A stretch of 64,000 nucleotides of DNA from Onchidella celtica (lineage: Eukaryota > Mollusca > Gastropoda > Systellommatophora > Onchidiidae), in the NCBI GenBank assembly GCA_963931925.1, contig OZ007573.1, forward strand, positions 35,012,807 through 35,076,806, read 5' to 3'. Every line of letters starts with the position of its first letter. Within the stretch, counting starts at the first letter, position 1. Below the pieces are notes generated by a model that did not search any database, was not told the origin of the DNA, and worked only from the letters and a program-made list of their open reading frames with translations. Below, one piece after another: positions 5,374 through 64,000 of this stretch. The position numbers and the translations under genes are program-made.

Positions 5374-5429
5374 TTTAGATCTAGACAGAATATTCCTATT
5401 CTTAATCTTTCAACGACGATTCGTCCACG

Positions 5430-6120: not shown

Positions 6121-6200
6121 AAACTTTACTTGCTGGTCCATGTTCGCCCACTACACCATGTACTAAACAAAACCTAGAGACAAAGGTAACTCAACTATTT

Positions 6201-9200: not shown

Positions 9201-9302
9201 AGAACTAGAAACAATAATGATCCACCCACAACTGTATTTGACCACAGACAGCTCACTTCCCGTTCAGGACGACCAGTGCGATCACCTAGGCGCTACCAAT
9301 AA
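6201..9302 (+). pseudogene. pol: Pol of the CsRn1-like element, broken in integrase
   Basis: 6201-8285 is open for 694 codons. Protease has D-T-G-A at residues 13-16 and L-L-G-A-D near 75-79. RT spans about 150-420 with Y-L-D-D at 311-314. RNase H runs about 430-570 with T-C-D-A-S-D, F-D-R-E-L and T-D-H-K-P-L. The integrase HHCC zinc domain ends at C-H-N-C-Q-A. A TAA at 8283-8285 follows, then the same frame continues into the integrase core (D-I-V-G-P-L). It shifts frame at about 8520 (S-D-R-G-S-Q-F) and shifts back at about 8625 (N-G-M-V-E-R-F), so all three catalytic acids survive in separate frames. A T-G-P-Y-K module (GPY/F) follows near 9015. The product would be a copying and inserting polyprotein, but this copy is dead. 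Confidence 0.9.
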
Positions 9303-9333
9303 CTCTGTGAGATGTCTGTGCTAGGGGGAGATG

Positions 9334-9473
9334 TGTGGTGCGCAGAGGTGCGCAGAGGTGTTGAACGGAGTCAACGGGTAATAAACAGAAATAAACGACT
9401 CTCGAGATTTACACTGAGCTGGACGGTTTTGAGTTGGTTGTGTATCTGCCTGTTGTGTCTGTCAAGTGCTATA
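9334..9473 (+). repeat. 3' LTR of the CsRn1-like element (140 bp)
   Basis: Same sequence as 5200-5353 from TGTGGTGCGC to GCTATA, but lacking 14 bases after GAGTCAAC. It is preceded by the polypurine stretch at 9321-9331 and followed by the GGTT duplication. Confidence 0.85.
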
Positions 9474-9477
9474 GGTT

Positions 9478-32625: not shown

Positions 32626-32787
32626 ATGCTTGTCAGTAACTTTCTTCGCCAAATCTTTGAAGATGTTTTCGGATTTGGAGCATGTTTTTTATTGTCCATC
32701 GTCGGCATGGGAACCAATGTCATCAATATCACTGTATTCTACAAACAGGGTTTCCGGGACTCAACCACAATATCCTTGTGTGCCATT

Positions 32788-34015: not shown

Positions 34016-35112
34016 CCATTGCCGTCTTTGATTTCCTGAAATGTTTGTCCGGATTTGTATACAGATTGTACGGATTTATTCGTATAGAAAATCCGGCGTT
34101 GTCGATGACTTGGGAAAGTATCACTGTCACTAATGACAAGAGTATCCACGCAATAACAGGAGCTGTGGCCAACGCGTTGACGGCGTATTTGTCCATTGAA
34201 CGATGTCTTTGCGTCAGTGTACCATTTAAAGTTCGAGACATTATCACACCACGGAGGACGTTTCTGACAATTGCAATTTTATTGTTCGTGATTTTGACAT
34301 CGTTCTTTCAATAGTTTCATACTTTTATAGCGTTCGAAATCATTTGGTCTTTCAGTCCGGATCTTAATGGAACTGTTGCTCAAAGAAAAGTATCATCATT
34401 CATAAAGAGCCATCCTGCAATTCTGGCTTACATGAGTACCATTTCCATTTTCTGGCCGATCGTTACATTTACCACCACCGTTGCTTGCACCGCTACTTTG
34501 GTGTTTTACTTGAAAAAGTCTAGTAAATTTCAAGTGGAGCACAGCAGCGTCTCTGTTGTAATACCAAAGGGCGTCGATCAAACTCAGCGTCCAGAGAATA
34601 GACGAGCTCAAACTACTACACGTAGAGCAGAAAACACATCAGACGAAAATGCATATCTGGAAGAAGACATCAATGTACCTGAAAGCCGCCATGCTCACAG
34701 CAATAACAAACAATACTCTCTGGGAAGGCTCGATAATAATTCCGCTGAGTCCAACAGGAAAAAAACGAATCTCTCTCACTGTGATCTACAATTGCTGAAG
34801 ATGCTTCTTGCAGTCATAGCAGTTTACTTACTCAACGTAATTCCACGTATCAGTCTCAGTTTCGTTAGGTATTTTGAACCTGAATTTTACTACGAAAGAA
34901 AATACAATAATTTGGTTGTAACAACCCTAAACTTAACATTTGCCTTGGATTTTATCAACGTCTCAGTTAATCTGTTCATATATTTAGGCATGAGTTCAAA
35001 ATTTAGGAAAATTTTTCCGGCAATTAATGTGTTGCCAAAAATGACCTTGAAAAAAAGGCTGAATTTTTTCTTTTGTAAATTGTCAAAGTTTAGCCCTTTG
35101 AGAACCATTTGA

Positions 35113-38121: not shown

Positions 38122-39291
38122 TCAAAGTAAATTGTGGCAGCACAGTAATGTCTGAAATATGTTCCGAAATTTTGAACTCATGCATAAATATATGAACAGA
38201 TTAACTGAGGCGTTGATGAAATCCAAGGTATATGTTATGTTAAGTGAAGTTACGGCAATGTTATTGTATTTTCTTTCGTAGTAAAATTCAGGTTCAATAT
38301 ACCGGACCACACTGAGAACGATTCGTGGAACTACGTTGAGCAAGTAAACCGCTATGACTGCAAGAAGTATCTTCAGTAATTGCAGATCACGGCGAGAGAG
38401 ATTCTGGTTTTTCCTGTTGGGGACAATGGAACCATCGGGTTTCCCCTGTTTGTTGTTACTGTGACCGAATGGACTTTGGTTTACCCTTGTGTAATCGTCC
38501 AAACATGTCTTATCATCTGATGAATTGTCCAGCTCGTGTGCAGCAGAATGAGCTAGGCCATTTCCTGAATGCTGGGTCTGATCGACGCCCCTTGATATTG
38601 CAACAGAGACATTGCTGTGCTCCAGTCGAAATTTACTAGACTTTTTCAAGTAGGTCACCAAGATAGCAGTGCAAGCAACGGTGATGGTAAATGTAAAGAC
38701 AGGCCAGAAAAGTGCATTGGTACTCATGTATGTCAGCACTGCAGGATGGTTCTTTAGGAATGATGACACCCGCCTTTGAGCAATCGTTTGATTGACAGCC
38801 GGACTGAAGAACCAGGTGATTTCAAACATGACAAATACATGAAAGAACGATATCAATGTCATGAAGACTATTAGGGCGATTGACAGAAATGTTGTTCGTG
38901 GTGTGATGATGTCTCGAACTTTAAATGGCACACTGACGCAAAGACATCGTTCAATGGACACATAAGCAGTCAATGCATTGGCCACAGCTCCTGTTATTGC
39001 GTGGATAATCGCGTCATTAGTGACAGTGATACTTTCCCATGTCATCGACAACGCCAGATCCGCTATACGAATCAATCCGTACAATCTATATACAGATCCG
39101 GACAAACATTTCAAGAAGTCAAAAACAGCAATGGCACACAAGGATATTGTGGCGGTTTCCCGGAAACCTTGTTTGTAGAACACAATTATATTGATGATAT
39201 TTGTCAACACTCCGACAAGAGAAAACAAAAAACATGCCCCAAAACCGAAAATGTCTTCAAGGATTTGGAGAAGAGAATCACTGACCAGCAT
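38122..39291 (-). CDS. Class A GPCR, chemosensory-receptor-like (389 aa)
   Basis: Fourth intact receptor, of the same subgroup as the split pseudogene at 32626-35112. TM1 contains L-T-N-I-I-N; TM2 has A-V-F-D-F-L-K-C; ECL1 has M-T-W-E-S; TM3 ends S-I-E-R-C (112-116); ICL2 reads P-F-K-V-R-D-I-I-T-P-R; ECL2 has a sequon at N167 (V-N-Q-T-I); ICL3 (about 218-300) contains G-V-D-Q-T-Q and a serine/asparagine-rich stretch; TM6 contains V-Y-L-L-N-V-V-P-R; TM7 D-F-I-N-A-S-V-N; then S-S-K-F-R and a short tail with L-L-C-C. Those two cysteines could be palmitoylated. The TM3/ECL2 disulfide cysteines are absent. The pair with 32626-35112 is in inverted orientation. The ligand is unknown. Confidence 0.85.
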   Translation of the reverse strand: MLVSDSLLQILEDIFGFGACFLFSLVGVLTNIINIIVFYKQGFRETATISLCAIAVFDFLKCLSGSVYRLYGLIRIADLALSMTWESITVTNDAIIHAITGAVANALTAYVSIERCLCVSVPFKVRDIITPRTTFLSIALIVFMTLISFFHVFVMFEITWFFSPAVNQTIAQRRVSSFLKNHPAVLTYMSTNALFWPVFTFTITVACTAILVTYLKKSSKFRLEHSNVSVAISRGVDQTQHSGNGLAHSAAHELDNSSDDKTCLDDYTRVNQSPFGHSNNKQGKPDGSIVPNRKNQNLSRRDLQLLKILLAVIAVYLLNVVPRIVLSVVRYIEPEFYYERKYNNIAVTSLNITYTLDFINASVNLFIYLCMSSKFRNIFQTLLCCHNLL

Positions 39292-39774
39292 GTTGTGATA
39301 TAAAGCAGGCTACAGATTTGAGATTATCGAAGGACCCCAATATATTTGTAAAACCCAGAGACAGTCGCTTCAAACGGCAGAACGCAACTTAAACCACAAC
39401 TTCAACAGACAATATAGTCACCGAATTCTTAAAACTGATTTTAGAAAAGCGTTAGAATATGATATGATGCCAGCACATAGTTTACGAAATTTGGTCAGAT
39501 GAATTATTTACCATTAACGAAAAGTGCAGTCATGTATTTGATGAGCTGTTTTTGTTTGACTGACAAAGCCGTCCCAGTACATTAATTATCACTGATAATT
39601 CCGCATTAGAAAGGGTGGTTGAAATGCTGATTTCTTGACCGCCGTCAAGGGGATTTGTTTATTAGTTTTTAGCATAACCAAGTTACATCAAAGACGTAGT
39701 TTGGGCCCTCGTCAAGCCGTTGGTGAGGAGTGTCTTAGCAACACTGGGAGATGTTAGTTTTTTTTTATGGATCC
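39292..39774. other. Intergenic, no gene seen
   Basis: Upstream flank of the receptor at 38122-39291. No motif recognised. Confidence 0.45.
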
Positions 39775-44309: not shown

Positions 44310-45433
44310 TCACAGCAAACTCCTGAAAGTGGCTTGAAATCTTGAACTCATGCCTAAAAATATGAAAAAGTTGACAGAAGCGTTAATATAATCCAATAGA
44401 CAATATCCTTGACTACTTTGTAAGCATTTGAATATTTTCTTCCACTGAAAAATTCTGGTACATAAATTCGCGCAGGCGCGACGACACCACGTGGTATCAC
44501 ACTGAAGAGGTGAGTGGTTATGATTACCAGCAACATCTTTATTAGCTGTTGATCTCGGCGTGACAAGTGCGAAGCTTTCTGTTTAACCCTTTTGGGATCT
44601 GATTTCTGTGACATGCTATCTGTTCGCAAGTGCCGTGCATGATTAGACTATTTCAGAACTTTCTCGTGGCTCGCTGAATGCTCTACTTGTGAAAAATCAT
44701 CCAAAGTCTTTGAACTCCCGCTGGTTAAAGTTATACTTCTCTCTGAAACTTTATTGCTGTGTTCAAGTCGGAATAAACTGGACTGTCTCAAGCGAATTAT
44801 CAACACAACTGTACAAGTGACGAGAACAGAAAAAGTTATGACGTGCCAGATTATAGAGATCACACTGGCGTATGCAAATATTTCTGGTTTATTCAGTAAA
44901 ACTGGGGAGGGTCAAAAATAAGCAACAGTTGCATTGAAAATAGGGCTGAATTCCCATATAATCTCCTGCGTTATGAAGGCGTGAAAGTAGGATGCCACTA
45001 CTACAACGGTTATTAATGAAAGCGTTACGTACGTTACAAACGGTGTTAGGATGTCTTTGACTTTGAACGGTAAACTTACACAAAGGCAACGCTCAATGGA
45101 CACGTACGCGGTTACTGCATTGACCATGGTTCCAAATATAGCATGAGCACTGACGTCACCCAAAACTGTGACGTTGTCCCAGGTAACAGACAACGCTACA
45201 TCCACGAAACGAACTATTCCATGGAGTCTATGCAAGAATCCGATGAGGCATTTCAAGAAATCGAAGAAAGTCATGGCACACAATGAAATAGCCGCTGTAT
45301 CTTGAAACCCCTGTTTGGAGAACACAATCATGCTGATAGCGTTGGTCCCCATTCCAATGGTAGATAGTAAAAAGCATGCCCACATACCCAAAGCATTGCT
45401 AAAGAGTTGGTAAATGAAGCCGGTGACAATCAT
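44310..45433 (-). pseudogene. Class A GPCR pseudogene (two stops, one frameshift)
   Basis: Reads as a full-length member of the receptor cluster. 173 codons from 45433 cover TM1 to ECL2: G-T-N-A-I-S in TM1, F-F-D-F-L-K-C in TM2, S-I-E-R-C in TM3 and the F-N-A-T-V sequon. TGA at 44912-44914 interrupts ECL2, and the same frame continues through TM5 to a TAG at 44648-44650 in ICL3. It then continues again through R-R-D-Q-Q-L-I-K-M-L-L and TM6 (atypical T-T-H-L-F-S). In TM7 the frame slips near 44397, and the expected L-D-Y-I-N-A-S-V-N and G-M-S-S-R-F continue in another frame to a TGA at 44310. The start is preceded by TTTACAG-A. The three lesions make it nonfunctional; fairly young, as the rest aligns well with its paralogues. 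Confidence 0.9.
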
Positions 45434-45741
45434 TCTGTAAATCTGTAAATCTAGTTGGATGACAGAAAGCTGTTTGTGGACAAAAAAAAAAGCAACAACA
45501 CTTATACAAGGTGAAAGTTAATCTCATCTTCAAGCCTAAAATAACGTCTTTTGACTGATTAAAAATCAGTTTTCGTTTTTCCAACACTATGCCAGTCCAA
45601 GGAGTGTATGAGTCAGTGCCAGCTTCGAACAACGAAGATATGAGATTATCACTTCCAGCTCAAAAGTCCTCATATGGCATTATACAAGATTCCATGGCAG
45701 CAAGAAATGAAAATTTCAGATGATTTCGCTCATTGTTTGTT

Positions 45742-48210: not shown

Positions 48211-48889
48211 CAAGGGCTGTGCGGCGTAAGGACTAAGCCGTGCCTTTTTGGTGTCGACATACGGCAGTATTTTTCAATGACACTACATATATACAATCCT
48301 ATTGGACAAAGTTAAAATATGATCGAAAAAAAAACAAAAACAGTTGTATGTTACAAATTTTCGCGTAAGATACAATAAATAAAACCTTACAATGGATTGG
48401 GAATGAAAAGGAAAATCCACACAGTAAGCTTTTGACAGGGCTCGCAGAGTGACGGCTTGTGGTTGGTTTGATTTTTCCAATGCTATATATATATAATTTT
48501 AACTTTGTTTCAACTCTGCAGCGACTTCACAAGTTTTCTGTGTTTTTTTAACATTCGCCGTTGGTCGCTAAAAACTACGCATGACGTACGTCGTGGCGTC
48601 AAATTGACATTATATTCCGAAAGAACAGTTTATTAGGATAGCTTCTTTAAAATATGGTGTCTGTCAGAAGCCAGAACGTACGAGTAGGGTTAAAATACTA
48701 TTGGACTCGGGAGCTGAAATTGTATTGTTCAAAGTTTGCGCCTAATTTTTACTGCTATCTAAAGCAAGAGTTTAGGAGAAGAGTTGAAACGTGAGTAGCT
48801 CCCAAGTAAGGAATTTCAAATCTAGGGGTTGAAATTTCAAATCTAAGAGGGAAGATGTGCTTGCCTCCATTTTTAACAATACCCATATG
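48211..48889. other. Spacer between two LTR insertions
   Basis: AT-rich, no coding sequence. Contains TATATATATA at about 48484-48495. No gene seen. Confidence 0.5.
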
Positions 48890-50115
48890 TGTCACGAGCA
48901 GAGTTAGGGTCTTGGGGATGTTACGACTGCACGAGAGGCAGCTAACTCACACTCGGACACAACCACACAAGAAAAGTACTAAATAACTAGAGCGTATATA
49001 TGTCAGGCCGGTCAGGCCATAGTTTACATAAATATTAATAACAAAACAAAAGACAATAGAGGTATATATTCAAACCAAAAACTCTAATTAATAACTTAAC
49101 CAATGATATTCATGTAACTATGGAGGTACTGCAATCAATAGTAAATAGGTATATTATACGAAACTGGATATCAATTTAAAGTGACAGTTGAGTCGCCACT
49201 GGCCAGTCGCCAGGCAAACTCTCCATAAATCATATGGGCTTAAATGTTAGGAGAGCCCAGTACGTTCAAAGCCTACAGAAGCACTCTTCGGCTTGTAGGT
49301 AATTTAAGCAGTTGCCAAAAGACTATATTTTATGCACAATCACTATTCAATTCATCAACAATGTGCTATATTATTCCAATCATACTATGGCAATAGATCT
49401 ATCATACAGGACACTCGTGGTCGAGTGCCAGCTGGGGTTTCCTTAGTCTTCCTATGAGGCTGTAGTTCTCTCTCTATCTCCGATCTCTATTATACTTGAA
49501 TAATTAAGATATATTACCATTGCTCACGCCTACTGAGAGGCGCGAACATCAAAATAGCGCAGCGTGGGCTTTCAAAGGTCAGCCCACTCAGACCTTTCTT
49601 TCTAGAGCTCAGTCAGTCCGTTAGCAAGGACTTCTTAGTCTTCAGACCACACAGTTCAGGTACTGGCCAACCGGAGATACTTCACGAAACGATGCTTCTC
49701 TCGTCTGTATTCACCTAATCTGAACGTTACACGATGTTATATACTATCCAACTACCCAGCGTGCTAGTCCGCTGGCCCAATTAGTTCAGCTATCTCATAG
49801 GTCGAAACCTCCCACCATTTTAACTGTAGTAATACGTCTGCACTATTCTACCAGCCAGTTAACGTGCAAAAACTTGTCTAGTCATACTTAACAATGTCAA
49901 CTGTCCCCACCTTGTTTCACCCCTACTCCATTACTTATTAATCACGAACATTAAAACCCACAAGCGTGAATCCAACAGTTTAACTTTACATTTATTTACT
50001 CACCAACTATAATTTGGCGAGGACCGTTCAAGGCCACCAGCCAATTTCTCATGGCCCTGGTAAACAACAACAACTCACTCTCTGCGTGAGTTTTAACAAT
50101 ATCCGAATCATGACA
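48890..50115 (-). repeat. 3' LTR of the non-autonomous element (1226 bp)
   Basis: Plus-strand ends are TGTCACGAGC and ATCATGACA, i.e. TG...CA LTR ends in both readings. Minus-strand TATA-like TATATAAC lies at 49736-49743. Same length as, and apparently identical to, 52648-53873. Confidence 0.92.
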
Positions 50116-51193
50116 TATCCCCCACCCCAGTTAAAATTTGCAATTTTAACGATATAAATGATTATCGTAAAGGGAAGGCATGAGTCGAGAAATTCCTCGA
50201 AAGGTGAACTTAACTAAGAATACTAGGTAATAACTAAGACTAGTACTAAAGTTGCAAAAAAACCTACAGGACGGGTATCATTGATGGACAAAACTTCATG
50301 AAAATCTTAAGGCTCCGTCCAAAAGTATATATCTCTCTGAGGATTAAATCTTACCTCTAAATAGGTAGACATTAACAATCATAACTAAAATTTTAGAGTA
50401 CAACACTGATCCTGTGCGAATGTCATCAGGAATGCATACATACAATGAATAATACTCAAGAAAAGATAACTATAGTGGCATCGATGGCATTAGTGGATCT
50501 GGACTCCTGGTCTGCCATGACTTCTCGTCCTCGACCCTGGGCAACAACGTCTGGTGTGGCCAAAATACGGGTCGACGTCAGTAAAATAGCTGTTGGAACA
50601 AAGGAAAGCACAGGGGTAGGTGAAAAGTGTTCACAATGGGTGAACAATATGTGATACCATCCCTCGGTCTCAGAATGAGGTGCTAATCAGTATCCAACGC
50701 CAATACATATGACAGACCTAAATAGGAGAACAAAATTTCTGGTGCATCACAACTAGAAATTTCGGCATAGTTAAGCTGAATTAACACTAACAGAAGCGTC
50801 CTTAAGATAAATTAATCTGATGTTCTCGTTCAAATTTCATGTAGCGCTTCTCGCATTTAACACTAATCTAGATCTCAAATAACATTACAATTAAATCTTT
50901 CCAACATCCAATCCGGTATAGATGAGATGCCACGAGGCGATAGCAGTTAATTTAATGCGCCGTTTCCGTACGCAAGCCATGCACACGTCAAGTGTCACAG
51001 TCATCTCGGTAATATAGTCATAATCGGTTCAATTCAATATCCATATCGGGTATGTTCTTAGGTAACTCATCCACTGGCCACATGGATAGTCACAATCATA
51101 ATCGGTATTACGTTAGATGGTCCACGAAACGCGGAAAACCATAGTCATAATCGGTTGTATACAAAACAACTCCACACTTCTCCAAAACTTCTT

Positions 51194-51333
51194 AAAACGC
51201 GACCACGCAGTGTCCTCTGTTACCACTGCAAAATATCTCAAAACGCGACCACGCAGTGTCCTCTGTTACCACTGCAAAATATCTCAAAATACGAATACGC
51301 AGTGTACTATGTTACCACTGCCAAACATCTCTC
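51194..51333. repeat. 46-bp tandem repeat, 3 units
   Basis: Unit AAAACGCGACCACGCAGTGT plus a CTCTGTTACCACTGCAAAAT-type second half. The first two units are nearly identical and the third is diverged (starts AAAATACGAATACGC). Starts at 51194, 51240 and 51286. The motif ATAGTCATAATCGGT recurs nearby at about 51015 and 51142. Confidence 0.9.
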
Positions 51334-52038
51334 AAATAATCGAAAAATACCAATATCATCCATCCCACGAGGCAATCTCATTATTGCTCTCCTCGGGTCG
51401 ACGTCATACGCAGACGACTAAAAAAAAGTATCCTCAATATATATACTTCACATAGCTCTTATATTGATACCACCTCGACACTGATACAGACTCTTCCCCT
51501 GAGACAATTTATTGCTCCTTCGGGCGGCGGCACCAGCCGACAATAAAACCAATACTCACTATTCATCACTACTCAAAAAAAAAAGGTCACCTCTCTGAAC
51601 AGTCTAATACTGTCCTCTTGGGAGCCCGTCAATTTAAAGACGAGATCGGTATAAATTAATAATTAGCAAGAACTGGCAGTGTACTCACTGCACGGATTCC
51701 AACAATTCAATAATAGTTGTCACTTAAACAGTGTTGTCACTCTACAGCACAGGAGGGTTAATTCTTAAAAACTTTTTCCTCTCACCAAGCCAAGTTACCT
51801 CTAAAAACCGCTCAACGTGTCAAAACACGTGAATCAATGGAAGTATGTAATCAAAAAAAATAAAAAAAATAAGTGTAACCAAGAAAGATAAATACTATAT
51901 AACGAATATATAAAAAGGTAATACATTACAAACAAGACGCAAGAGGAACAGGACGAACGATAAATTACAATAAGACGCTAGACTAACAGAAATCACGAAC
52001 GACAACAGACCCGACTAACCTGAAACTATGTACAGAAA

Positions 52039-52133
52039 GGTAAGAAAAGCACAAGAGAGACGTCTTCCTAAAAGTACGAGGAAGATAGAACGCTAACAAT
52101 CTATACGAATAACAGGTCCCTACAGAACTATTC
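52039..52133 (-). promoter_or_regulatory. Conserved leader block with hairpin (copy in non-autonomous element)
   Basis: Complement reads TTCTGTAGGGACCTG, TAGCGTTCTATC, then TCTTCCT / 9-base loop / AGGAAGA (52063-52085). The same block in the same position order occurs at 57205-57300 in the leader of the Gag-bearing element. The stems are identical and the loops differ (CGTACTTTT here). Possibly a packaging or dimerisation signal. Confidence 0.7.
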
Positions 52134-52647
52134 AAGGCAAAGCATATCTCCTATCCGTTTTAAACGCCATCTAGATCTGCTAGTCTGGCAAAAAGAGGTA
52201 TGCTAAGTCTCGATCCCTTCCAACCTCCCGCCTATCTAATCTAACACAAAAGAAAAAAATAATGCCTGTCAAAAGTAGGGGAGCTGGAACGACGAACCCC
52301 TCAAACGAAGACAAATACAGATGGTTCACTTAACTGGGCAAAATGGACTGGCTCTTTCCTTTGGTCCACAGCGCTGGTCTTGTCTTTTCCTGATGCTAGC
52401 TGCCAGTCCCTCGTAGTGGTCCCAGGATCAATGACGAGAGGACATGCCAGACATGTGGGGGAGAAACAAAAACAAAAAAATCAGCAGTATACAAAACTAT
52501 AAACTACAAAAATTACATAAATAACAGTGGAGTCTTAGAGTGGTAGACCTGCAGCTGTTGACGGGGTCCTCTTCCGATGATAGTAGTGTTCTCTAGATGT
52601 CAGAAGGTGACGGGTCCTCTTCAGATGTCAGTGGGGTCCCCTCCAGA

Positions 52648-53873
52648 TGTCACGAGCAGAGTTAGGGTCTTGGGGATGTTACGACTGCACGAGAGGCAGC
52701 TAACTCACACTCGGACACAACCACACAAGAAAAGTACTAAATAACTAGAGCGTATATATGTCAGGCCGGTCAGGCCATAGTTTACATAAATATTAATAAC
52801 AAAACAAAAGACAATAGAGGTATATATTCAAACCAAAAACTCTAATTAATAACTTAACCAATGATATTCATGTAACTATGGAGGTACTGCAATCAATAGT
52901 AAATAGGTATATTATACGAAACTGGATATCAATTTAAAGTGACAGTTGAGTCGCCACTGGCCAGTCGCCAGGCAAACTCTCCATAAATCATATGGGCTTA
53001 AATGTTAGGAGAGCCCAGTACGTTCAAAGCCTACAGAAGCACTCTTCGGCTTGTAGGTAATTTAAGCAGTTGCCAAAAGACTATATTTTATGCACAATCA
53101 CTATTCAATTCATCAACAATGTGCTATATTATTCCAATCATACTATGGCAATAGATCTATCATACAGGACACTCGTGGTCGAGTGCCAGCTGGGGTTTCC
53201 TTAGTCTTCCTATGAGGCTGTAGTTCTCTCTCTATCTCCGATCTCTATTATACTTGAATAATTAAGATATATTACCATTGCTCACGCCTACTGAGAGGCG
53301 CGAACATCAAAATAGCGCAGCGTGGGCTTTCAAAGGTCAGCCCACTCAGACCTTTCTTTCTAGAGCTCAGTCAGTCCGTTAGCAAGGACTTCTTAGTCTT
53401 CAGACCACACAGTTCAGGTACTGGCCAACCGGAGATACTTCACGAAACGATGCTTCTCTCGTCTGTATTCACCTAATCTGAACGTTACACGATGTTATAT
53501 ACTATCCAACTACCCAGCGTGCTAGTCCGCTGGCCCAATTAGTTCAGCTATCTCATAGGTCGAAACCTCCCACCATTTTAACTGTAGTAATACGTCTGCA
53601 CTATTCTACCAGCCAGTTAACGTGCAAAAACTTGTCTAGTCATACTTAACAATGTCAACTGTCCCCACCTTGTTTCACCCCTACTCCATTACTTATTAAT
53701 CACGAACATTAAAACCCACAAGCGTGAATCCAACAGTTTAACTTTACATTTATTTACTCACCAACTATAATTTGGCGAGGACCGTTCAAGGCCACCAGCC
53801 AATTTCTCATGGCCCTGGTAAACAACAACAACTCACTCTCTGCGTGAGTTTTAACAATATCCGAATCATGACA
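52648..53873 (-). repeat. 5' LTR of the non-autonomous element (1226 bp)
   Basis: Copy of 48890-50115. Minus-strand TATA-like box at 53494-53501. In element orientation it begins TGTCATGATT and ends GCTCGTGACA. Confidence 0.92.
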
Positions 53874-55519
53874 ATATCCGTTTTATTGGACAATCGCGCA
53901 ATGACTGCATTGAAGACAGGTGATGTTGACCAACAAAATTCTTTCGCTGGGACGTCGGACTCATGGCGCGAACACACATCTGGGAGGCGGGAGTACAAGG
54001 TTCGAAAATACATATTTAAGTAATTCGGTGAAAGTAATGCATTGATCGCTCGGTGGTAATTTTCTTTGTTTCATTGTAGTTCTTATTTTGCTTTAATTCA
54101 GGAAAACGCTGTTTCATGAAAGTAGAACTACGGTAAGACTAGAGTAGGACTACAACAGGACTGTAGAATTACAAAATGTCCCGAGTTGTCTTTAGATGGC
54201 GAACCCAAATTCATTTTCTGAAAAAAAAAAAGTTACCAGCAAAGTCTGCGGTCAGTTTTCAGCACAAAACTTGTCCTATTGGACTCAGCTGGTAAGTTGG
54301 GTCATTTAAGAAATCCTTTGAAACGTGTTTAAAAAGAAAATTAGCTGAAATAATGGTCTAAATGTCGCAACTACCAGCAGAGGAGTTGAGTATGGCAAGT
54401 GTTCTGCTGCAAACAGTGACTGCAGACTTTGCTTCTGGCGACATATTGGTAAAAACAGGCAGTTAAAATTCTAATAAAATAACACAGAGATAGCTAGGCA
54501 GGGTGGAGGGTTATTTAAGCAGATATAAAAAAAAAAATCCTAGACGGGTGAATGAGTGAGTGTGTGTGTGTGAGGGGGGGGGGGTTGAATGGAGAGATGG
54601 ATGGATGAGTTGGTGGATGGGTGAAGTGGGCTCGGATGTTAGGCAACAAAAATGATCAAATGGACATGATGAAAGGACAACAGAAAAGGCATCAAAACTC
54701 ATATAACGACTTCCCTACCACCCAGTTAAGATACTAAATTAATGAAGGGGTGGAAAGAGTTCAGCACCACCCGACCAGTCTGAACTATTCTATTAGTTCT
54801 ATCTATGGACTGTCTCAAGATCAGCTTTAGGGTAAGAGATTAGGTCAAGATTAGGGATAGATTTTTGGTTAGGGATTGGCTGAGTGGTTTTGACGTGCGG
54901 AACCCTTTCCTCCTAAATCTGCCCATGGCCCTAACTGTAAGAGTTCAAAGTGGCCCGGGCGTATCGAACTCTTTCCGATAGGTCTCGCTGATGAACAGAC
55001 AGATACGCAGACATACACATTGGCATAGAGATAGGCATGAATTCTGGATGACTACAGGGAGTGTGTTACTATTCTGGATGTGGGCAGACTCTGAGGATGT
55101 GTTACAATTTACTAACGTTCTCTATCAGTACCACACAGTCTACAGAAAGATTTCCGAATGCGTCACTTCCTCTGATCTCATTCTTAATAACATTTCAGGT
55201 CATGCCCAACGAGAAGTCAGCTGTTTGCCACCAGTGACTCGCCAAGCATACGATGAAAAGACGAAGCCAATCTATTGAAAATACGTACGCGGCTACAGAT
55301 TATGTGAAAGGTGTACTGCTATTAGTATGCATGATATGTTGGTAGGAACTTTGGGAATTTTGGCAGTCAGAATTTTTTTTTTAATCTTACTTATTCTGTG
55401 GACAGACGTTAAATCATTTCTGCTTAAAAGATGTGGTGTTTTTTGTTTTGTTTTGTTTTTTTGTCGTCGAAATCATATTGTTTTCGTTTCACGACAACGA
55501 CAGCTTCTGGCATGATGAT
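53874..55519. other. Intergenic, no gene seen
   Basis: Contains a (TG)n, an 11-base G run and GGAT repeats around 54555-54625, and T runs near 55373 and 55441-55461. No supported coding region. Confidence 0.5.
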
Positions 55520-55524
55520 ATGAC

Positions 55525-56721
55525 TGTCACGAGTGGAGTGAGTGCAATTAAGGGGATTGCTACAGAGCGGGTGTAGAGTAAGAAAGGCTCACAGTAGACA
55601 GCAAGTTAAGCGTGCTGTTGTGAGTAGTAGTGGGGGCGGGGTCTGAAGGAGGCGAAAGCGCGGTATTACTATCACTGCAAGTTAGAAGGTCCTAGGGATC
55701 GGACCTGTGAATAAAAGCCCATCGGGCGGACATAAAGGGGAAGCAGTCGAGAAGACTAGTGAGAGTCTTTCCAGTTATGACTGGTATGTAGAACGTTGAT
55801 TGATTATTATGATTGATGTATTATATTATATTCGTCTATTACCATGATGTAAATAAGTATATGTGAGGAATGTGGAAGTCCTTGATATTGGATATAGCAA
55901 TGTGCGCCACGAGCGATAGATGAAAGTGAGTTCATGGATTTGTAGCGCGAGTGAGTAGTGTGTACTCCGATGGAAGTGTGTTACCGTAAGATGTGTGGTG
56001 AGTGAAAGGTGAACTAGTGTGTGTACGTTTCAGGGGTTGTAAGGAGAGGTGGAGTGAATAGAAATGGTAGGATATTATACCAATGTAATGTTATTCTTGT
56101 AGGTGTCGGGGACGGGCCGCAGAGCCACCTCGATGAGCACAGGGGATAGGCCAGCATAGGGCCGGAGGCCGTGCATAGGCCAGAAGTGAGACTGTCGGGG
56201 CAGGACAGTAGAGGCACATAAAGTCGTGGCAGTCAGGCCACGGACAGGGACGTAGATATGAGAGTGAATGAGATACTATATTGTTGCCATGTTGATAGGC
56301 TCGTGAACTGATATTATGTTGTTGCCATGTTGATGGCTATGGAAATAATAATGGGTTATTGCCCTGGCGAGGTGCTAGGGGAGTGCTAAGGTGTATGACG
56401 ATAGGAAGGTGATATTGAGAGACTGCGGTGCCAGTGAATCATTAATGTACTATTAAGACCCTGAGGGGAGAGGCTGAGGCCGAAGTGCCTTTAGGAGTAA
56501 CTACCGGATTGTGGATCCGAGGGAGAGTGTGTGTGAGAATAAGGCCGTTGTACGGCAGTGCATTTCAATAATATAATGTATGTAATTGCGCTATTATATG
56601 TATAATTATGTTTAATAAATGTGTGAGTCTGATGGGTTGTTTTGTTAAGTGTTAAACTCGTTTGTTCGTGATTGTCGTCCTGTCATAAACTATTACATTT
56701 CCCAGTCTGGGATTTGTGACA
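55525..56721 (+). repeat. 5' LTR of the Gmr1-like element (1197 bp)
   Basis: Begins TGTCACGAGTGG and ends GATTTGTGACA. TGAATAAAAGCCC near 55709 may be a TATA-type box, and AATAAA at 56614-56619 a polyadenylation signal. A minus-strand frame of 67 codons inside it is repeated in the other LTR and is not a gene. Confidence 0.93.
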
Positions 56722-56722
56722 C

Positions 56723-56759
56723 TGGGGGCTCGTCCGTTGTGACACTGGGGGCTCGTCCG
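56723..56759 (+). promoter_or_regulatory. Duplicated primer-binding site, tRNA-Pro type
   Basis: TGGGGGCTCGTCCG occurs at 56723-56736 and again at 56746-56759, 23 bp apart. The repeated unit includes GTGACA, the last six bases of the LTR. The 14 bases match the tRNA-Pro primer site known from murine gammaretroviruses, complementary to the tRNA 3' end with CCA. The doubled copy suggests a slip during reverse transcription. Confidence 0.8.
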
Positions 56760-57204
56760 TTGTGACTCGTCCATTTTCGTAATATTTAGTTGTAGTTAGT
56801 TAGTAGTAGGTATTTGTGCTGTCTTGTTCGTTGGATGAATGGACATTTCATGATATGATTTAGGTATATTTATGAATAATAATATGTATTGATGCATGTA
56901 TTTTGATGAATATGTATTAATGTGTACTTAAATTTCAGAGAGACAGTGGGTGTGCGTGCAGCCTGAGGAGACAAGTAGCCAGAGCTCCGATTAGGTCGAG
57001 GACTTAAACTCAAAATTTGAAAGTTAAGTGAAACTGAAATTTTGTGCCCTGGATTGTGGGCTGTTCCTTTAATCTGTCTTTTTCCGCTGTTTTTCTGTTT
57101 TTGTCGTAATTGATTGTACGGGCGGTGGCGCGGGTTTGCTGTGTTGAACTTAGTTTATCCTTTTAAAAAGGTGTGGTAAACTTTGGAACTTCGTTCATCA
57201 CAGC

Positions 57205-57300
57205 GAACAGTTCTGTAGGGACCTGTATTTTTGTTTAGATTGTAGCGTTCTATCTTCCTCGTTGTTTTAGGAAGACGTTTCTCTTGTCCTTCTCCTCCCT
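57205..57300 (+). promoter_or_regulatory. Conserved leader block with hairpin (copy in Gmr1-like element)
   Basis: Contains TTCTGTAGGGACCTG, TAGCGTTCTATC and a hairpin TCTTCCT / CGTTGTTTT / AGGAAGA at 57253-57275. It is nearly the same as the complement of 52039-52133 in the coding-less element. It lies in the untranslated leader between primer site and Gag, where packaging signals of LTR elements usually lie. Confidence 0.7.
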
Positions 57301-57689
57301 ATCTATAGATACGTTCTTTTTTTTCAGACTCTGTTCTTGTTCGTACCGTGTTGTGTAATCGGCGTAGTAGGTTGCATTTTTTTTTTCCATTATAGTTTTT
57401 TTTTGTAGAAGCTTTGTCCTAGTCTGGTTCGTTGTCCTTGACGTACTTGTGGTCCTTCTACTGAATTTCCTTATTCTTGTCTTTTCTACTCTTTTTTATT
57501 ATTAATAGTGCAGTACATTTTATGAATATAGAATTAGTTGTGCTGTAAAGGTAAATTTCTGAATTGTATTGGATACAAGTAGGTGTGGTTATATCTGGTG
57601 TGATCTCAGGTCTCTGGTCGTGTCGTTAGTTATCATACCGACAGGTTAGCCGTTTTTTTAAATATATACCATAACCATAAATCTGTGAA

Positions 57690-60422
57690 ATGGCGGAACT
57701 CCAACAACTAATGAAGTTGGGTAAGGAACTTGGCCTGGAGGGAGAGGAGCTACGCGGCTGGATTAAAGAACAGCAGGCGGATTTGCGCGATGAGCGTGCT
57801 AAGGATAGAGAGCGAGAAAAAGAGGCTCAAGAGCGACAGAGAGAAGAGGAAAGAGAGGCTAAGGCTCAGCAACAAGAAAGAGAGGCTAAGGATAAGGAAG
57901 AGGAAAGGGAGTTTAAGTTAAAGGAGTTGCATCAGCAACAGGAGAGACAGGCTCAGGAGAGGGAGCTTAAGTTAAAGGAGATAGAAGCTCAAGAACGGGA
58001 GCAGGAGATAAGGTTAAAGGAGATAGAAGCTCAAGAGCGGGAGACAGACGCGCGAGTAAGAATAGCGGAGTTGGAAATCAAAAAGAGTGCGCCAACAGAA
58101 ACAGTTGAGCGGCAGGTACCCAATAAAGGTGGTGTCAGGATTAAGCTCCCTACGTTCGACGACCGGAAGGACGACATAGACGCCTTCCTTTACAGGTTCG
58201 AATTGAACGCACAATTGCAATGGGGGGAAAATAAGGAATTATGGGCCACGTACCTGGCATCGCTATTGCAGGGGCGAGCGTTAACCTACTTTAAAGAGCT
58301 ACAGCGCGAAGACGTGCAAGACTACGATAAGCTGAAGGCTTTGCTGCTTCGCCGATTTGCGCGTACCGAGGAATATTTCCGGGAGCAGTTTAGGCGGGCA
58401 CGTGCAGATACCAGGGAGGACTTTGCTGCCTTCGTCGCGAGACTAACGGAGTATTTCGCGAACTGGGTAGACTTGGCGCATGTGGGCACGGATTTTGCTA
58501 AACTGAAAGACTTAATGATCCGTGACCAGCTGTACGCGTCGTGCCACAAAGATCTGGTGGCTTTCCTGAAAGAGAACGAACCCGCGACGGTGCAGGAGGC
58601 GTCTAAGTTGGCGGAGGCATACCGTACGGCACATCCGTCCAAACCAGTCGCCAGGGCGTACGTCCAAGATGCTGGGTACGTCGCCGTTGTCGAGGGGTCG
58701 CCGGCAGGACTTAGGGACAGGTCGCGTCAGCGTGGTGCCTATAGTGGGCAAGGCCAGGGGCAGCATAGGGGCTATCACCAATCACCGGCATATGGATCCG
58801 GTAAGTTTGACCGAGCAGGAGGGCTAGGTCGCGGTAATGGCCGGGGGCGAGTTGTGACCTTTGCCGATGACCGACGGCATAGGGACTCTAGTTCCGGTCG
58901 CGAAGGGTCACGGGGACCCAGGCCTAGAGCAGCACAGGGAGCGGAGTGTTGGACTTGCGGACGCGTGGGTCACTTTTCGCGCGAGTGTAGGGCCGCGAAG
59001 TGTTGGAACTGCGGAAGAGCAGATCACATCAGCGTGAACTGCCCTGCAGGTAGGATAGCGGCGAACGTGGACAGTAGCTCCAGTCCATGTTCCCCAAATA
59101 AATTTCATCATGCGGCTGCGTGCGTTACATCGGACAACGGAGGCGGACAGTATTCTAAGTGTCCCAGTTGTGAGAAGTTATTATCTTCCGGTGTTTTACC
59201 TTGTGGGAGAAAGATCCCCGTTATAAATTCATGTCATACAGGAGGTGGTCTTAGGGTTTATCCGGGGTTTGTTGGGGACGAACCGGTCTCGGTTTTACGA
59301 GATACAGGATCTACCGTTGTGGGAGTGCATAGGGACTGCATTCGGGATTCACAGCTTACAGGTGAGACTGTCCCGTGCATCCAATTTTCGGGGGCCATTG
59401 AGAAATTACCCATGGCAAAAATAATGATAGATACACCTTTCCTTAGCGGGGAAGTCGAAGCAGTCGTTGGTTGTTTTCCAGGCGCCCAGCTCATCATTGG
59501 GAATGTATCACGGGTAGTTTCCCCTTCCGAGGAGAACGTGCAAGCATGGTCGCAATCAAAAGGTATTGACTTTTGCGCCGCGGTCGAAACACGCCGACGG
59601 GTAGCCGATAAAGATAAGATTAGACCTTTGGCTACGCCAGCGGTCAACCTAGATATCACGCCAGAGCGCTTGGCGAGATTACAAAGGGAGGACCCGTCAT
59701 TAAACCCATGTTTTGGGGAAGCGCGAACCGAGAAAACAAGGAAATATAAAAACGGGTCATCTTCTTTTTTTGTCCAGGGGGGCATTCTGTTCCGTATGTA
59801 CGTCACAGTGGCTTCCGTTCAAAAGCAGGTCGTCGTGCCACGGTCGTTAATGGCTACAGTATTGCGTCTGGCCCATGATGTTCCATTAGCGGGTCATATG
59901 GGAAGTGCTAGAACCAAGGAGAGAGTTCTAAAAGATTTTTATTGGCCATCGATACATAGAGATGTGCGGTTATATTGTAAGACGTGCAGTGCGTGCCAAA
60001 AGACGACGCATAAGGGTCGTTCACCCCAGGCTCCTCTTCAAAAGATCCCCACGGTTTCGGAACCGTTTAAAAAGGTTTCGATAGACCTTGTTGATTTAAG
60101 AGAAAGATTATCTTCAGCGCGCACTATAGCAGAAGAAGCGTCTAGTATCGCTTCAGCAAGAGCAAAGACCTATAGAGATAGAGGATCCAAACTGAGAATT
60201 TTTAAGCCAGGAGACAAGGTCCTATTGTTGTTACCTACGGACCATAATAAGTTATTGATGACATGGAAAGGTCCTTATGTTATTGAGCGAATTGTTTCGA
60301 AGGTAGATTACGCTATCCACATTGATGGATCAGTAAAGGTTTTCCACGTTGATATGCTGCAGAGGTTTCATGAGAGACCAAAGTATCTGTATTCTCATAC
60401 TGGTGTTGAAGGACATACCTAA
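57690..60422 (+). CDS. gag-pol: Gag-protease-integrase polyprotein, integrase core deleted (910 aa)
   Basis: Residues 25-135 form a highly charged E/K/R/Q coiled coil. Residues 150-315 are a capsid-like region, and its second half (about 228-312: Y-F-R-E-Q-F, W-V, L-M-I-R-D-Q, E-A-S-K-L-A-E) resembles the SCAN domain, which is reported to derive from Gmr1-like Gag. Two CCHC knuckles lie at C420-C433 and C438-C451. Protease has R-D-T-G-S-T (D538) and L-I-I-G (601-604). The integrase zinc domain has H729, H736, C766 and C769. S-I-D-L-V (D799) is the start of the core, after which the text jumps to the C-terminal part: Y-R-D-R-G, F-K-P-G-D-K-V, W-K-G-P-Y and V-D-M-L. The other two catalytic acids are thus missing. 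Gag and protease may still work; integrase cannot. Confidence 0.88.
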   Translation: MAELQQLMKLGKELGLEGEELRGWIKEQQADLRDERAKDREREKEAQERQREEEREAKAQQQEREAKDKEEEREFKLKELHQQQERQAQERELKLKEIEAQEREQEIRLKEIEAQERETDARVRIAELEIKKSAPTETVERQVPNKGGVRIKLPTFDDRKDDIDAFLYRFELNAQLQWGENKELWATYLASLLQGRALTYFKELQREDVQDYDKLKALLLRRFARTEEYFREQFRRARADTREDFAAFVARLTEYFANWVDLAHVGTDFAKLKDLMIRDQLYASCHKDLVAFLKENEPATVQEASKLAEAYRTAHPSKPVARAYVQDAGYVAVVEGSPAGLRDRSRQRGAYSGQGQGQHRGYHQSPAYGSGKFDRAGGLGRGNGRGRVVTFADDRRHRDSSSGREGSRGPRPRAAQGAECWTCGRVGHFSRECRAAKCWNCGRADHISVNCPAGRIAANVDSSSSPCSPNKFHHAAACVTSDNGGGQYSKCPSCEKLLSSGVLPCGRKIPVINSCHTGGGLRVYPGFVGDEPVSVLRDTGSTVVGVHRDCIRDSQLTGETVPCIQFSGAIEKLPMAKIMIDTPFLSGEVEAVVGCFPGAQLIIGNVSRVVSPSEENVQAWSQSKGIDFCAAVETRRRVADKDKIRPLATPAVNLDITPERLARLQREDPSLNPCFGEARTEKTRKYKNGSSSFFVQGGILFRMYVTVASVQKQVVVPRSLMATVLRLAHDVPLAGHMGSARTKERVLKDFYWPSIHRDVRLYCKTCSACQKTTHKGRSPQAPLQKIPTVSEPFKKVSIDLVDLRERLSSARTIAEEASSIASARAKTYRDRGSKLRIFKPGDKVLLLLPTDHNKLLMTWKGPYVIERIVSKVDYAIHIDGSVKVFHVDMLQRFHERPKYLYSHTGVEGHT

Positions 60423-61233
60423 TGTCGTGTCATTCTTTGATGATATAGCATGCCATACGTCGACATGGTCTGATCATATTCAGACACTAACAGTAATTTT
60501 TCAACGATTACGTCATTTTGGGTTAACTGTTAAACCCGCAAAGATGGATTTGGCATGTCCAGAGATAGTATTCTTAGGACATATTGTGGGTAGAGGTGTT
60601 CAGAGACCTGAAGAAACAAAAATTGACAAGTTAGTAGGGTTGCAAATCCCTAAAACAAAGAAACAAGTCAGAAGCTTAGTGGGAATTTTAAATTATTACA
60701 GAAAGTTCATTCCAAATTTTTCCTCCTTGTCATCTTCTCTTACTGACCTTACTAAGAAGGGACAACCCGATAAGGTCCAGTGGACGTCTGAATGTCAGAC
60801 ATCATTTGATAATTTGGTGACAGCATTATCATCGTCACCCATTTTGATATTACCCGATTTTCGATCTAATTTTATCCTCAGAACGGATGCGTCGGACTCT
60901 GGTGTCGGCGCTTGTCTTCTACAGGAGAAGAACGAATGTCTCCATCCTGTATGTTATGTCAGTAGGAAGTTATTGCAGAGAGAAAGAAAGTATTCTGTGA
61001 TAGAGCGTGAGTGTCTTGCCATTGTCTGGTCCGTCCAGAAACTAGGACGTTATCTCATGGGACGAGAATTTTGTATCCAGACAGACCACAAGCCACTGAC
61101 ATTTTTGTCGAAGAATCGTTCGTCCAGCCCACGCTTGTCTAGATGGGCATTGGCTTTACAGCCGTATACCTTCGTTATTCAACCAATTCCAGGAACCAGC
61201 AATCATATCGCCGACTACCTTAGTCGAGCCTAG
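60403..61233 (+). pseudogene. pol: RT (C-terminal half) and RNase H of the Gmr1-like element
   Basis: The reading, one frame over from Gag-integrase, enters at V-L-K-D-I-P-N-V-V-S and at once meets F-F-D-D, the RT catalytic motif (usually Y-x-D-D), then F-L-G-H-I-V and N-Y-Y-R-K-F-I-P-N-F of palm and thumb. RNase H follows, with T-D-A-S-D-S-G, I-E-R-E-C-L-A and T-D-H-K-P-L, ending H-I-A-D-Y-L-S-R-A and TAG. The fingers and first part of the palm are absent, so a deletion joins integrase C-terminus to RT. RNase H lies last, with no integrase after it, confirming the unusual order. Confidence 0.88.
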
Positions 61234-61590
61234 GGGAAGATTTCGGGAGCTTATACATCGGAGGACAGGAACATTGACAGGATCTGTGTGAATAAGTCCA
61301 CTTTAAAATATTGACATTATAAATATGATATGAAGAATGGTTGATAGGTTGAATGGTTTTTGATTCTGTATTAAGTATTGTGGTTAGTTAGCTATTCAGG
61401 ATGTGACACATATATGCATATTGCAGGCCATACGGATCCCCATATTTTCCCCTGATTTCGGTATTTTATATACTAGGGGAACTACTAGGTCATTTTTTTT
61501 TAGTGTAGGTATTGCTCACGCTCACTCGTTGACAGTCATCTTGATGCGATTTGAAATTAATTGCATTAATTTTTTTGGGGTGGGGGATGA

Positions 61591-62787
61591 TGTCACGAGT
61601 GGAGTGAGTGCAATTAAGGGGATTGCTACAGAGCGGGTGTAGAGTAAGAAAGGCTCACAGTAGACAGCAAGTTAAGCGTGCTGTTGTGAGTAGTAGTGGA
61701 GGCGGGGTCTGAAGGAGGCGAAAGCGCGGTATTACTATCACTGCAAGTTAGAAGGTCCTAGGGATCGGACCTGTGAATAAAAGCCCATCGGGCGGACATA
61801 AAGGGGAAGCAGTCGAGAAGACTAGTGAGAGTCTTTCCAGTTATGACTGGTATGTAGAACGTTGATTGATTATTATGATTGATGTATTATATTATATTCG
61901 TCTATTACCATGATGTAAATAAGTATATGTGAGGAATGTGGAAGTCCTTGATATTGGATATAGCAATGTGCGCCACGAGCGATAGATGAAAGTGAGTTCA
62001 TGGATTTGTAGCGCGAGTGAGTAGTGTGTACTCCGATGGAAGTGTGTTACCGTAAGATGTGTGGTGAGTGAAAGGTGAACTAGTGTGTGTACGTTTCAGG
62101 GGTTGTAAGGAGAGGTGGAGTGAATAGAAATGGTAGGATATTATACCAATGTAATGTTATTCTTGTAGGTGTCGGGGACGGGCCGCAGAGCCACCTCGAT
62201 GAGCACAGGGGATAGGCCAGCATAGGGCCGGAGGCCGTGCATAGGCCAGAAGTGAGACTGTCGGGGCAGGACAGTAGAGGCACATAAAGTCGTGGCAGTC
62301 AGGCCACGGACAGGGACGTAGATATGAGAGTGAATGAGATACTATATTGTTGCCATGTTGATAGGCTCGTGAACTGATATTATGTTGTTGCCATGTTGAT
62401 GGCTATGGAAATAATAATGGGTTATTGCCCTGGCGAGGTGCTAGGGGAGTGCTAAGGTGTATGACGATAGGAAGGTGATATTGAGAGACTGCGGTGCCAG
62501 TGAATCATTAATGTACTATTAAGACCCTGAGGGGAGAGGCTGAGGCCGAAGTGCCTTTAGGAGTAACTACCGGATTGTGGATCCGAGGGAGAGTGTGTGT
62601 GAGAATAAGGCCGTTGTACGGCAGTGCATTTCAATAATATAATGTATGTAATTGCGCTATTATATGTATAATTATGTTTAATAAATGTGTGAGTCTGATG
62701 GGTTGTTTTGTTAAGTGTTAAACTCGTTTGTTCGTGATTGTCGTCCTGTCATAAACTATTACATTTCCCAGTCTGGGATTTGTGACA
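61591..62787 (+). repeat. 3' LTR of the Gmr1-like element (1197 bp)
   Basis: Same length as, and almost identical to, 55525-56721 (one substitution seen at 61699). Polyadenylation signal at 62680-62685. Preceded by the polypurine tract at 61577-61587 and followed by ATGAC. Confidence 0.93.
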
Positions 62788-62792
62788 ATGAC

Positions 62793-64000
62793 CATGATGA
62801 TGGCATTGGTGATATCTGTCCGTCACTGCCACTGGGATAACGAGGGTCACATATCCATGAAATGGCTGAAGATGCTAACGCGGAAACGAAAAGACTTTCT
62901 CCCTGCCCTGCGTGAGTTTCGTCTATACTTACTCATTAGTAATGGTGAATCTTCTGACAGACATGGGGAGGATTCCATTTGAGTCAAACAATTGAGATAC
63001 TTTAAGAACGTGACATTAGGAGGGTCCGTGAGTGGGACCGGGGGGGGGGGGGTCGCAGGAAGAAAAACAAAGGGGCGGGGGGGGGGGCTCTGTGCCCGAC
63101 CTGACAAGTTAGTCCTCTTTGTGGATGCCTTCATAGATACTTTATATTTCATATTTAATTTTTTTATTTTGTCGATTATTTTATCTGTTCAAGTTTCCTT
63201 TTTTTTTTCTGTTGTTTTTTTTCTTGTTTTGTTTTTTTTTTCTTGAAAAAGGCTGTTGCCGAAATATCGGCCATTTTCTGTCTTCTCCTTTGCGTTTCAT
63301 TGTATCGTTTGGGTATTATTTCTTACGCATGGCTTTGCTTCATACAACTTTTTCATTTTGCCAATTTTTGACTATTGAAGCCATAGAATGGTGTAGATTC
63401 TGTACAAAATTTGACAAACTCGCATATTTTGTGTTTTCTGATGTATTTGACATGCGATAGTTCACATGAAGAGTATGAAGATGTGATGTACTTTTAATGT
63501 AGCTTGCTCAAGATCAGGCACTCCAAACACTTTTTGGTTCATGTTGAGTTAAAATCCGGAAAGGAGAGTTCGAAACTCTTCAAAAGTATTGCAGTGTGTT
63601 GGTGTAATTTTACCGTCAAATACCTCAAGAAAATAGAAAAACTTTACCTAGAGAGCTGTGTATGAAGAAATTCACGTTTATGAAAAATTTCAAACGATCT
63701 TTTCAATCTTCAAAATTTTTCTCCCAATTCTCCTGAATTCTAACACACTTTTGAGAAAATTTCACTGATTCTTTGCTGAAACCTAATTTACCAAGAGACC
63801 AGTATGCTTTTATTGTAAGTAGTGACAGAATATTATTACCCTAGTATACTGCAGAAGACACATGTTCATGTCTGACATGCTGACAATGGCGACTAATTAC
63901 GCAGAGGTGCGGAAGGCGTTTTCAAGGCAGGGTGGCTCTTTTTGTCAGAATCCTTTTTGTCAACATTCATAAACTAAGGAACGTACGGAACTGATAACAT
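62793..64000. other. Right flank, no gene seen
   Basis: Contains two G runs (about 63040-63052 and 63077-63087) and T-rich stretches (63193-63242). No protein family recognised. Confidence 0.5.

Follow-up and report, generated by a model that had tools for sequence, protein, structure and literature searches.

Introduction

Retroviral packaging and dimerisation signals lie between the primer-binding site (PBS) and gag and are built of small stem-loops; to our knowledge, little has been established about the packaging signals of LTR retrotransposons in animals. Non-autonomous LTR retrotransposons include Dasheng and the TRIMs alongside LARDs and BARE2. BARE2 is described as unable to make Gag, and its RNA as occurring in particles (PMC3735527). 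LARDs are given a size rule of >4 kb in a source that also presents an Echinococcus TRIM with a candidate partner, lennie, and that describes PSI as kept only as secondary structure, which is why packaging signals are hard to identify (PMC4558846). Sireviruses are reported to keep highly conserved non-coding motifs among members that diverge vastly (PMC2829016), and partner elements among the grass pararetroviruses to have different genes and shared noncoding sequence, with recombination given as the main cause (PMC5491270). A more distant precedent is provided by small-RNA-derived TRIMs (PMC10886601). A gene order with integrase (IN) before reverse transcriptase (RT) is described for the Gmr1 clade in a survey of mollusc LTR elements (PMC6238403).

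Here we describe a block of leader sequence common to two LTR elements, A and B, that lie close together in a 64-kb window (the whole stretch of DNA that was analysed), and to a gene-bearing relative of B, termed C, found elsewhere in the genome. A search of the open-access literature gave no paper that we recognised as describing the block, which does not prove that it is unpublished.

Results

Two elements with unrelated LTRs

Element A lies on the forward strand and has the following parts.

55520-55524, repeated at 62788-62792: target site duplication ATGAC, 5 bp
55525..56721 (+): 5' LTR, 1197 bp, 1196/1197 identical to the 3' LTR
56722..56770 (+): primer-binding region, with TGGGGGCTCGTCCG twice in a 23-nt tandem repeat
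57690..60422 (+): open frame with SCAN-like Gag and two CCHC motifs, a protease (PR)-like DTG found by eye and an IN zinc domain (Pfam)
60412..61233 (+): C-terminal RT and RNase H, RVT_1 model positions 148-205 of 205 only (Pfam)
61577..61590 (+): polypurine tract (PPT), common to A, B and C
61591..62787 (+): 3' LTR

Element B lies on the complementary strand.

52648..53873 (-): 5' LTR, 1226 bp, 1226/1226 identical to the 3' LTR
52560..52647 (-): candidate primer-binding region, ~22-nt tandem repeats with TGGAGGGGACCCC, also in the C copy L093
50725..51970 (-): B-only body, at the position that gag-pol occupies in C, without a long open frame
50117..50724 (-): 3' region and PPT, common to C (98% over 611, one C copy, L092)
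48890..50115 (-): 3' LTR

The leader of A is 968 nt long and ends at the gag ATG at 57690. No match to the integrase core was obtained in the frame 57690..60422 (Pfam) and the N-terminal part of RT was not found in A (Pfam, RVT_1), so that A, with no integrase-core match and a remnant of RT, is defective: it bears Gag, and its enzymes are not full. B spans 48890-53873 (4984 bp, with an interior of 2.5 kb) and contains zero open frames of at least 140 aa; its body gave no match to the coding DNA of A, and its flanks, read as a target site duplication, are ATATG and ATATC, the same at 4/5 positions. The preliminary description of this DNA had paired a coding-less element with a Gag-bearing one at 57205 and 52133, and both exist, with the correction that 57205 belongs to the Gag-bearing A and that the coding-less element is B, on the complement. 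Its statement that the LTR bodies are unrelated is borne out (LTR A against LTR B scores 22, with a shuffle mean of 24.8), and A-B similarity is likewise at chance level in the LTRs, the genes of A and the remaining interior of B.

Common to A and B are the LTR tips TGTCA...TGACA (by eye), a PPT match of 31 columns (score 34, shuffle maximum 29) and, directly 3' of the 5' LTR in both families, tandem units of 22-23 nt made of the primer-binding motif and the LTR edge. The number of these units in A varies from 1 to 3 between copies (56722-56770; L016, L023, L027), and their equivalent in B is at 52560-52647. The sequence TGGGGGCTCGTCC of the A-related primer-binding region presumably fits tRNA-Pro.

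Other features of the window include a solo LTR related to that of B at 32788-34015 (1023/1271 alignment columns identical, 88 gaps), which has a perfect duplication CCATT and is inserted in a chemoreceptor-like gene (32616-32787 / 34016-35112), and another Ty3/gypsy element at 5200-9475, with short direct repeats at both ends, a DUF7041 protein, and protease, RT, RNase H and integrase pieces. Long-frame paralogues of chemoreceptor-like GPCRs form a cluster (1886-3088, 13092-14297, 19817-21085, 38122-39309 and 44912-45517); for the protein at 38122-39309, the only paralogue searched, the best named matches were from Aplysia and Physella, with others from Biomphalaria and Elysia, all heterobranch gastropods. 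The B-only body holds a 46-bp tandem repeat in three copies (51180-51317) without a counterpart in the fetched C stretches.

A block common to both leaders

57205..57344 (+): leader block of A, best-conserved part 57205-57288 (border post hoc)
51995..52133 (-): leader block of B (and of C)

Between 57205-57344 and the complement 52133-51995 the block is 85% identical over 108 nt (blastn, E 7e-29) and 80% over 141 nt, and its local A-B alignment scores 136, with a maximum of 35 among 200 dinucleotide shuffles. The block of about 95 bp first proposed between the leader of A and the complement of 52039-52133 is real at that place and beyond chance, and its length has been revised to ~140 nt. There is no third copy in the 64-kb window (blastn). 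The block lies 483 nt after the 5' LTR in A and 514 nt after that of B, and its start is 485 nt upstream of the A gag ATG (57690), in the leader between PBS and gag.

Upstream of the block there is a 20-column T-rich A-B match, reached by 3/200 shuffles; downstream, A against B gives no match above chance (80/200 shuffles reach it), and an exact run of 14 nt is found 38 nt past the block at equal spacing in A and in the C copy L072 (0/300 shuffles). The A-B differences within the block cluster (267/20,000 permutations were as clustered), with unchanged runs of 18, 20 and 14 columns. An Rfam scan of 48800-62900 gave no match, and searches of viral_contigs gave 0 matches for the 20-mer TAGCGTTCTATCTTCCTCGT and none for the RT-RNase H. 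The 16-mer TTCTGTAGGGACCTGT was matched 13 times in genome_contigs and 2 times in viral_contigs (prokaryote and virus collections), in no case with the rest of the block, and these matches were set aside as chance.

Genome copies and the origin of B

The genome search covered 1.14 Gb in 43 contigs. With the A block, 40 copies were scored of 838 candidates and 40/40 were identical over 96 nt; with the B block, 40 were scored of 1172 candidates, 34 at 100% (one over 94 nt) and 6 at 99%. The 63 copies fetched (18 with flanks, 22 more, 3 by a loop-variant pattern and 20 chosen by gag) comprise 43 of A type and 20 of B/C type, and all except one lie inside an A-type or B/C-type leader, the sole exception being L068, which has the block and the B body without a recognisable B leader upstream. 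Searching for an intact stem with an altered loop gave 3 places, each of them inside an A or a B leader, and the orientation of the block is that of the element in all placed copies. The copies support the block as a leader-specific sequence of LTR elements: the preliminary description had named a dispersed repeat outside such leaders as the finding that would overturn its claim, and 62/63 fetched copies are in A-type or B/C-type leaders. Separately, A blocks at C1:2374468, 2381591 and 2388714 are exactly 7123 bp apart, which looks like a tandem array of A elements.

Three of the nine block-selected B-type copies (L067, L072 and L073) have the B leader and the block without the B body, the B-only body being absent 3' of the block in each. 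The frame that follows L072 (L087) encodes Gag-PR-IN and runs uninterrupted for 888 aa until the fetched stretch ends, with gag, CCHC, H2C2 and rve found (Pfam), whereas L073 is followed by Gag-PR that is then broken by other sequence (L088) and L067 by a 241-aa piece of Gag (L086). These are the copies of C, and the comparison of a whole C element with B rests on the one copy that was followed, at C1:55.49 Mb. Its LTR pieces are 99.3% (1227 columns) and 99.5% (364) identical to those of B, it has the primer-binding repeats of B and leader pieces 89-100% identical to B's, and after its genes come 611 nt that are 98% identical to the B 3' region and then the PPT. B resembles a C element in which ~1.25 kb of other sequence has taken the place of gag-pol, and the C-type 5' sequence that B keeps stops about 16-21 nt past the block. 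Judged from these alignments, B is a coding-less derivative of a C-type element, and it is of LARD type in having an LTR pair, no coding capacity, a length >4 kb and a coding-bearing relative with the same LTRs. Its possession of the block would then be due to descent from a C-type element and, B being derived from C, the Gag of C, not that of A, would be its natural helper. The earlier idea that B depends on the Gag of A in trans is not upheld, given a Gag-PR-IN-bearing sibling with LTR pieces 99.3-99.5% identical (one copy).

Gag-PR-IN of A and C are identical at 274/706 aa (39%) and their coding DNA at 46% on the codon alignment (50/59/28% by codon position); the highest identity among 659 windows, each of 47 codons (141 nt), is 56%, versus 80-85% for the block. 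As aligned here, the leader block of A and C is far more alike than the genes, despite near-saturated coding DNA. Gag-PR-IN of C is at 42-43% to six loci of a related group, D, and at 42% to the scallop protein P0001, and that of A at 35-37% to the D loci and P0001; a small tree groups A with C and with an unnamed protein, P0003, in one clade (100/99, with a long-branch warning from the program). The D loci (L034-L063; from 44,581 candidates, 56 were scored and 30 of these fetched) have long open frames, many of ~1530 aa, leaders of ~100 nt (in three loci) and, in 28/30, TGGGGGCTCGTCC at the usual place. The block is absent in 30/30 of these loci with long open frames, so that it is dispensable to the clade as a whole. 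In the D locus L040, a gag zinc knuckle and an H2C2-rve integrase are followed by RVT_1 (Pfam); the order of integrase upstream of RT is seen in this one D locus and in the remnants of A.

The start of the block changes slowly within family A

As copies selected by the block cannot measure its conservation, a gag-selected sample was relied on. A 151-nt gag query gave 40 scored of 145 candidates (25 at 100%, 15 at 99%), and leaders were fetched for 20/40, five with a 100% match and all 15 with a 99% match. The block is kept in 20/20 of these A copies. Substitutions, counted against the window copy of A, were as follows.

Upstream 240 nt: 416/4611 (9.0%)
Block columns 1-96: 55/1898 (2.9%)
Block columns 97-140: 28/876
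Core columns 1-84: 23/1658 (1.4%), border set after seeing the data
Columns 85-140: 60/1116 (5.4%), post hoc border
Columns 141-380, downstream: 211/4695 (4.5%)
Columns 141-260: 70/2339 (3.0%), equal to the rate of the whole 96-nt block (2.9%)
120 nt after column 260: 141/2356
Columns 39-58: 0/389, with 12 indel events

The indel frequency of the core (29 per 1658) matches that of the downstream sequence (79 per 4695). Fisher's test of columns 1-96 against all flanks gives 7e-12, a value that is inflated by the kinship of the copies and overstated because of it. Three of the 20 copies are free of substitutions over the aligned columns 1-96, slightly more than the 0.96 that their flanks predict. 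The block-selected copies agree with the gag-selected pattern and, biased by choice, are supportive only; in those of B/C type, columns 97-140 (19/747) are no slower than the upstream (120/3901) or downstream sequence (70/3263), which leaves the first part as the only one that could stand out in B/C as well. Within A, the first part of the block changes more slowly than the upstream leader, as a cis-acting signal would, and these counts support that conclusion. As a separate observation, the A gag piece is exact in 25 of the 40 scored genome copies; the window copy of A (57690-61233) shows no integrase core and no N-terminal RT and keeps Gag, the PR-like motif, the IN zinc domain and RNase H.

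Predicted RNA structure

The predicted fold of an 11-row alignment has two neighbouring hairpins in both families.

57219..57250 (+): SL1 of A, predicted stem-loop with a variable apex
57253..57275 (+): SL2 of A, predicted, hairpin TCTTCCT/AGGAAGA
52088..52119 (-): SL1 of B
52063..52085 (-): SL2 of B

A hairpin with a kept stem and a varying loop had been proposed at SL2. Its 7-bp stem TCTTCCT/AGGAAGA is indeed identical in A and B; the 9-base loop differs at 2/9 positions only, which makes the window pair alone weak evidence for structure (with 23 changes among 107 columns, the probability that all 14 stem columns stay unchanged is 0.026). None of the 7 pairs varies in the 11 rows and no pair is compensatory, and the stem covariation that had been suggested as a check was accordingly not seen; pairs that are invariant give no evidence either way on structure. 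The exact stem recurs in 18/20 gag-selected A copies and is rearranged in 2 (L105 and L106), for which a 5+4-bp hairpin is predicted at the same place, so that the stem is largely, not always, kept in other copies.

SL1 (columns 15-27 with 33-46) has 10 pairs, of which 7 are fixed, 1 changes on one side and 2 on both, and it is kept in 11/11 rows; slid controls, for both hairpins together, were 37-56% paired. The two double-sided pairs are in effect one contrast of A versus B/C, and the apex can alternatively be aligned with a gap. Local folds of 61-62 nt have a hairpin at both places in 19/20 gag-selected A copies and in B; SL1 is not folded in L113 and is without its lowest pairs in L102, L105, L106, L108 and L109. 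Folding, also suggested earlier, agrees in giving two predicted hairpins in both families, but the whole block is no stabler than shuffles (z +0.74 and -0.39). SL1 and SL2 together have z -1.0 and -0.9, and SL2 alone, with z -2.1 and -2.5, is better than shuffles; the background rate of a perfect 7-bp hairpin is ~0.15 per 140 nt in this window. One candidate for a palindromic dimer loop, TCTATAGA in window A, is TCTGTAGA in 8/8 copies L016-L023 and was rejected as not conserved; L090 and L091 have the window form TCTATAGA.

Discussion

Our main reading, held tentatively with a probability of roughly 0.45, is that the block is a conserved leader RNA element that acts in cis, the element's own Gag selecting, dimerising or packaging the genomic RNA. 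It would be an RNA of ~84-108 nt with two adjacent stem-loops, situated in the long 5' leader of a Ty3/gypsy subclade with integrase before RT. Families A and C carry it, and B has kept it together with the LTRs, primer-binding region, leader, 3' region and PPT of C. Present on the genomic RNA, the block may help the Gag of its own element to select, dimerise or package that RNA. Maintenance of the block by selection, its action as RNA and packaging as the step concerned are all inferred. Since B makes no protein, the block would be used in cis, at the level of either RNA or DNA. Its location between PBS and gag, outside the LTR, makes selection, dimerisation or packaging of the RNA the first candidate, and the block, having stayed more alike than the genes, is probably an RNA signal. 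The bare sequence is kept across Gag-PR-IN that are only 39% identical, which makes a host factor nearly as likely.

For B alone, it is possible, if somewhat doubtful, that the block is a passive leftover of a C-type ancestor, not yet lost after the loss or replacement of gag-pol. B and the one C copy are as close as this would require (LTR pieces 99.3-99.5%, leader pieces 89-100%, 3' region 98%), and the identical LTRs of B leave little time for decay. However, the 5' segment kept by B ends just past the block, which as one event is weak evidence, and there are many block-bearing B-type copies (40 scored of 1172 candidates).

We consider it unlikely that modules were exchanged, such that template switching between co-packaged RNAs moved or homogenised the block and its likeness is due to recent transfer and not to long constraint. 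The block is only 15-20% diverged with genes near saturation, a value not far above that of the upstream leader of A (9.0%), and homogenisation of noncoding regulatory sequences by recombination has a reported precedent in grass pararetroviruses (PMC5491270). Neutral transfer predicts otherwise, however, than a core that changes several times slower than the upstream leader of A; A and C also belong to one clade (100/99, long branches flagged, small tree), the colinear likeness runs 38 nt beyond the block and the changes are clustered rather than even.

Just as unlikely, in our estimate, is another fate of the RNA, such as long-leader translation, nuclear export, splicing or host-factor binding. 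Outside the stems, too, primary sequence is kept, with 18 and 20 columns in a row unchanged, and conservation across Gag-PR-IN 39% identical is a better fit to a host-side binding site than to a Gag-specific one. A purely translational role would nevertheless be useless to B, which is without a long open frame, and the acceptor-like TTCTTTTTTTTCAG near the block end in A is accompanied by no donor-like GTRAG in the A leader and no acceptor-like tract at the equivalent place in B; the Rfam scan likewise gave no match. A wider version of the packaging reading, which we regard as improbable, would make the block a leader RNA module kept almost unchanged as the genes, the LTRs and most of the leader ceased to resemble each other. 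It would be a common packaging ticket for Gag lineages with Gag-PR-IN only 39% identical, by which different families in one genome, and the derivatives of these without coding capacity, could share, or be forced onto, one packaging or host-factor route. That an unrelated dispersed repeat landed in both leaders is extremely improbable, high copy number being the one thing found in its favour, and is refuted within the copies examined by the 62/63 that are in A-type or B/C-type leaders, by the presence in the window of just one copy in each element, at matching depth, and by the absence from 30 related loci.

Read as a cis-acting element for packaging, the block is a candidate leader element that could be found by sequence alone, in window copies with near-identical LTRs. 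Because the genome also contains a relative that bears Gag and a derivative without coding capacity, the pairing of each parasite with the Gag that mobilises it can be tested directly.

Among known systems, retroviral signals are similar to the block in placement and in their small stem-loops, predicted here, and differ in that no conserved palindrome was found in the block (one candidate). PSI is treated as structure-only in the account of PMC4558846, whereas here primary sequence is kept. The sireviruses, as described, are plant Ty1/copia elements with motifs at the PPT, the LTR and the LTR junction, whereas the block is ~500 nt into the leader, and, in contrast to what is reported of the pararetrovirus partners, slow change within A argues for selection here as the more probable cause. 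Gmr1-like Ty3/gypsy elements are likened to ours by gene order alone, that is, integrase before RT in the D locus L040 and an IN zinc domain before the RT/RNase H remnant in A; the difference is that A and C have leaders of ~1 kb with the block, against ~100 nt (three loci) and no block (30 loci) in D. LARDs and BARE2 are the closest counterparts of B in its LTRs, its PPT, its lack of a long frame, its 4984 bp and its LTR and leader from a gag-bearing sibling, and B differs from them in that its leader block recurs in a separate family, A, with genes that are almost saturated with changes.
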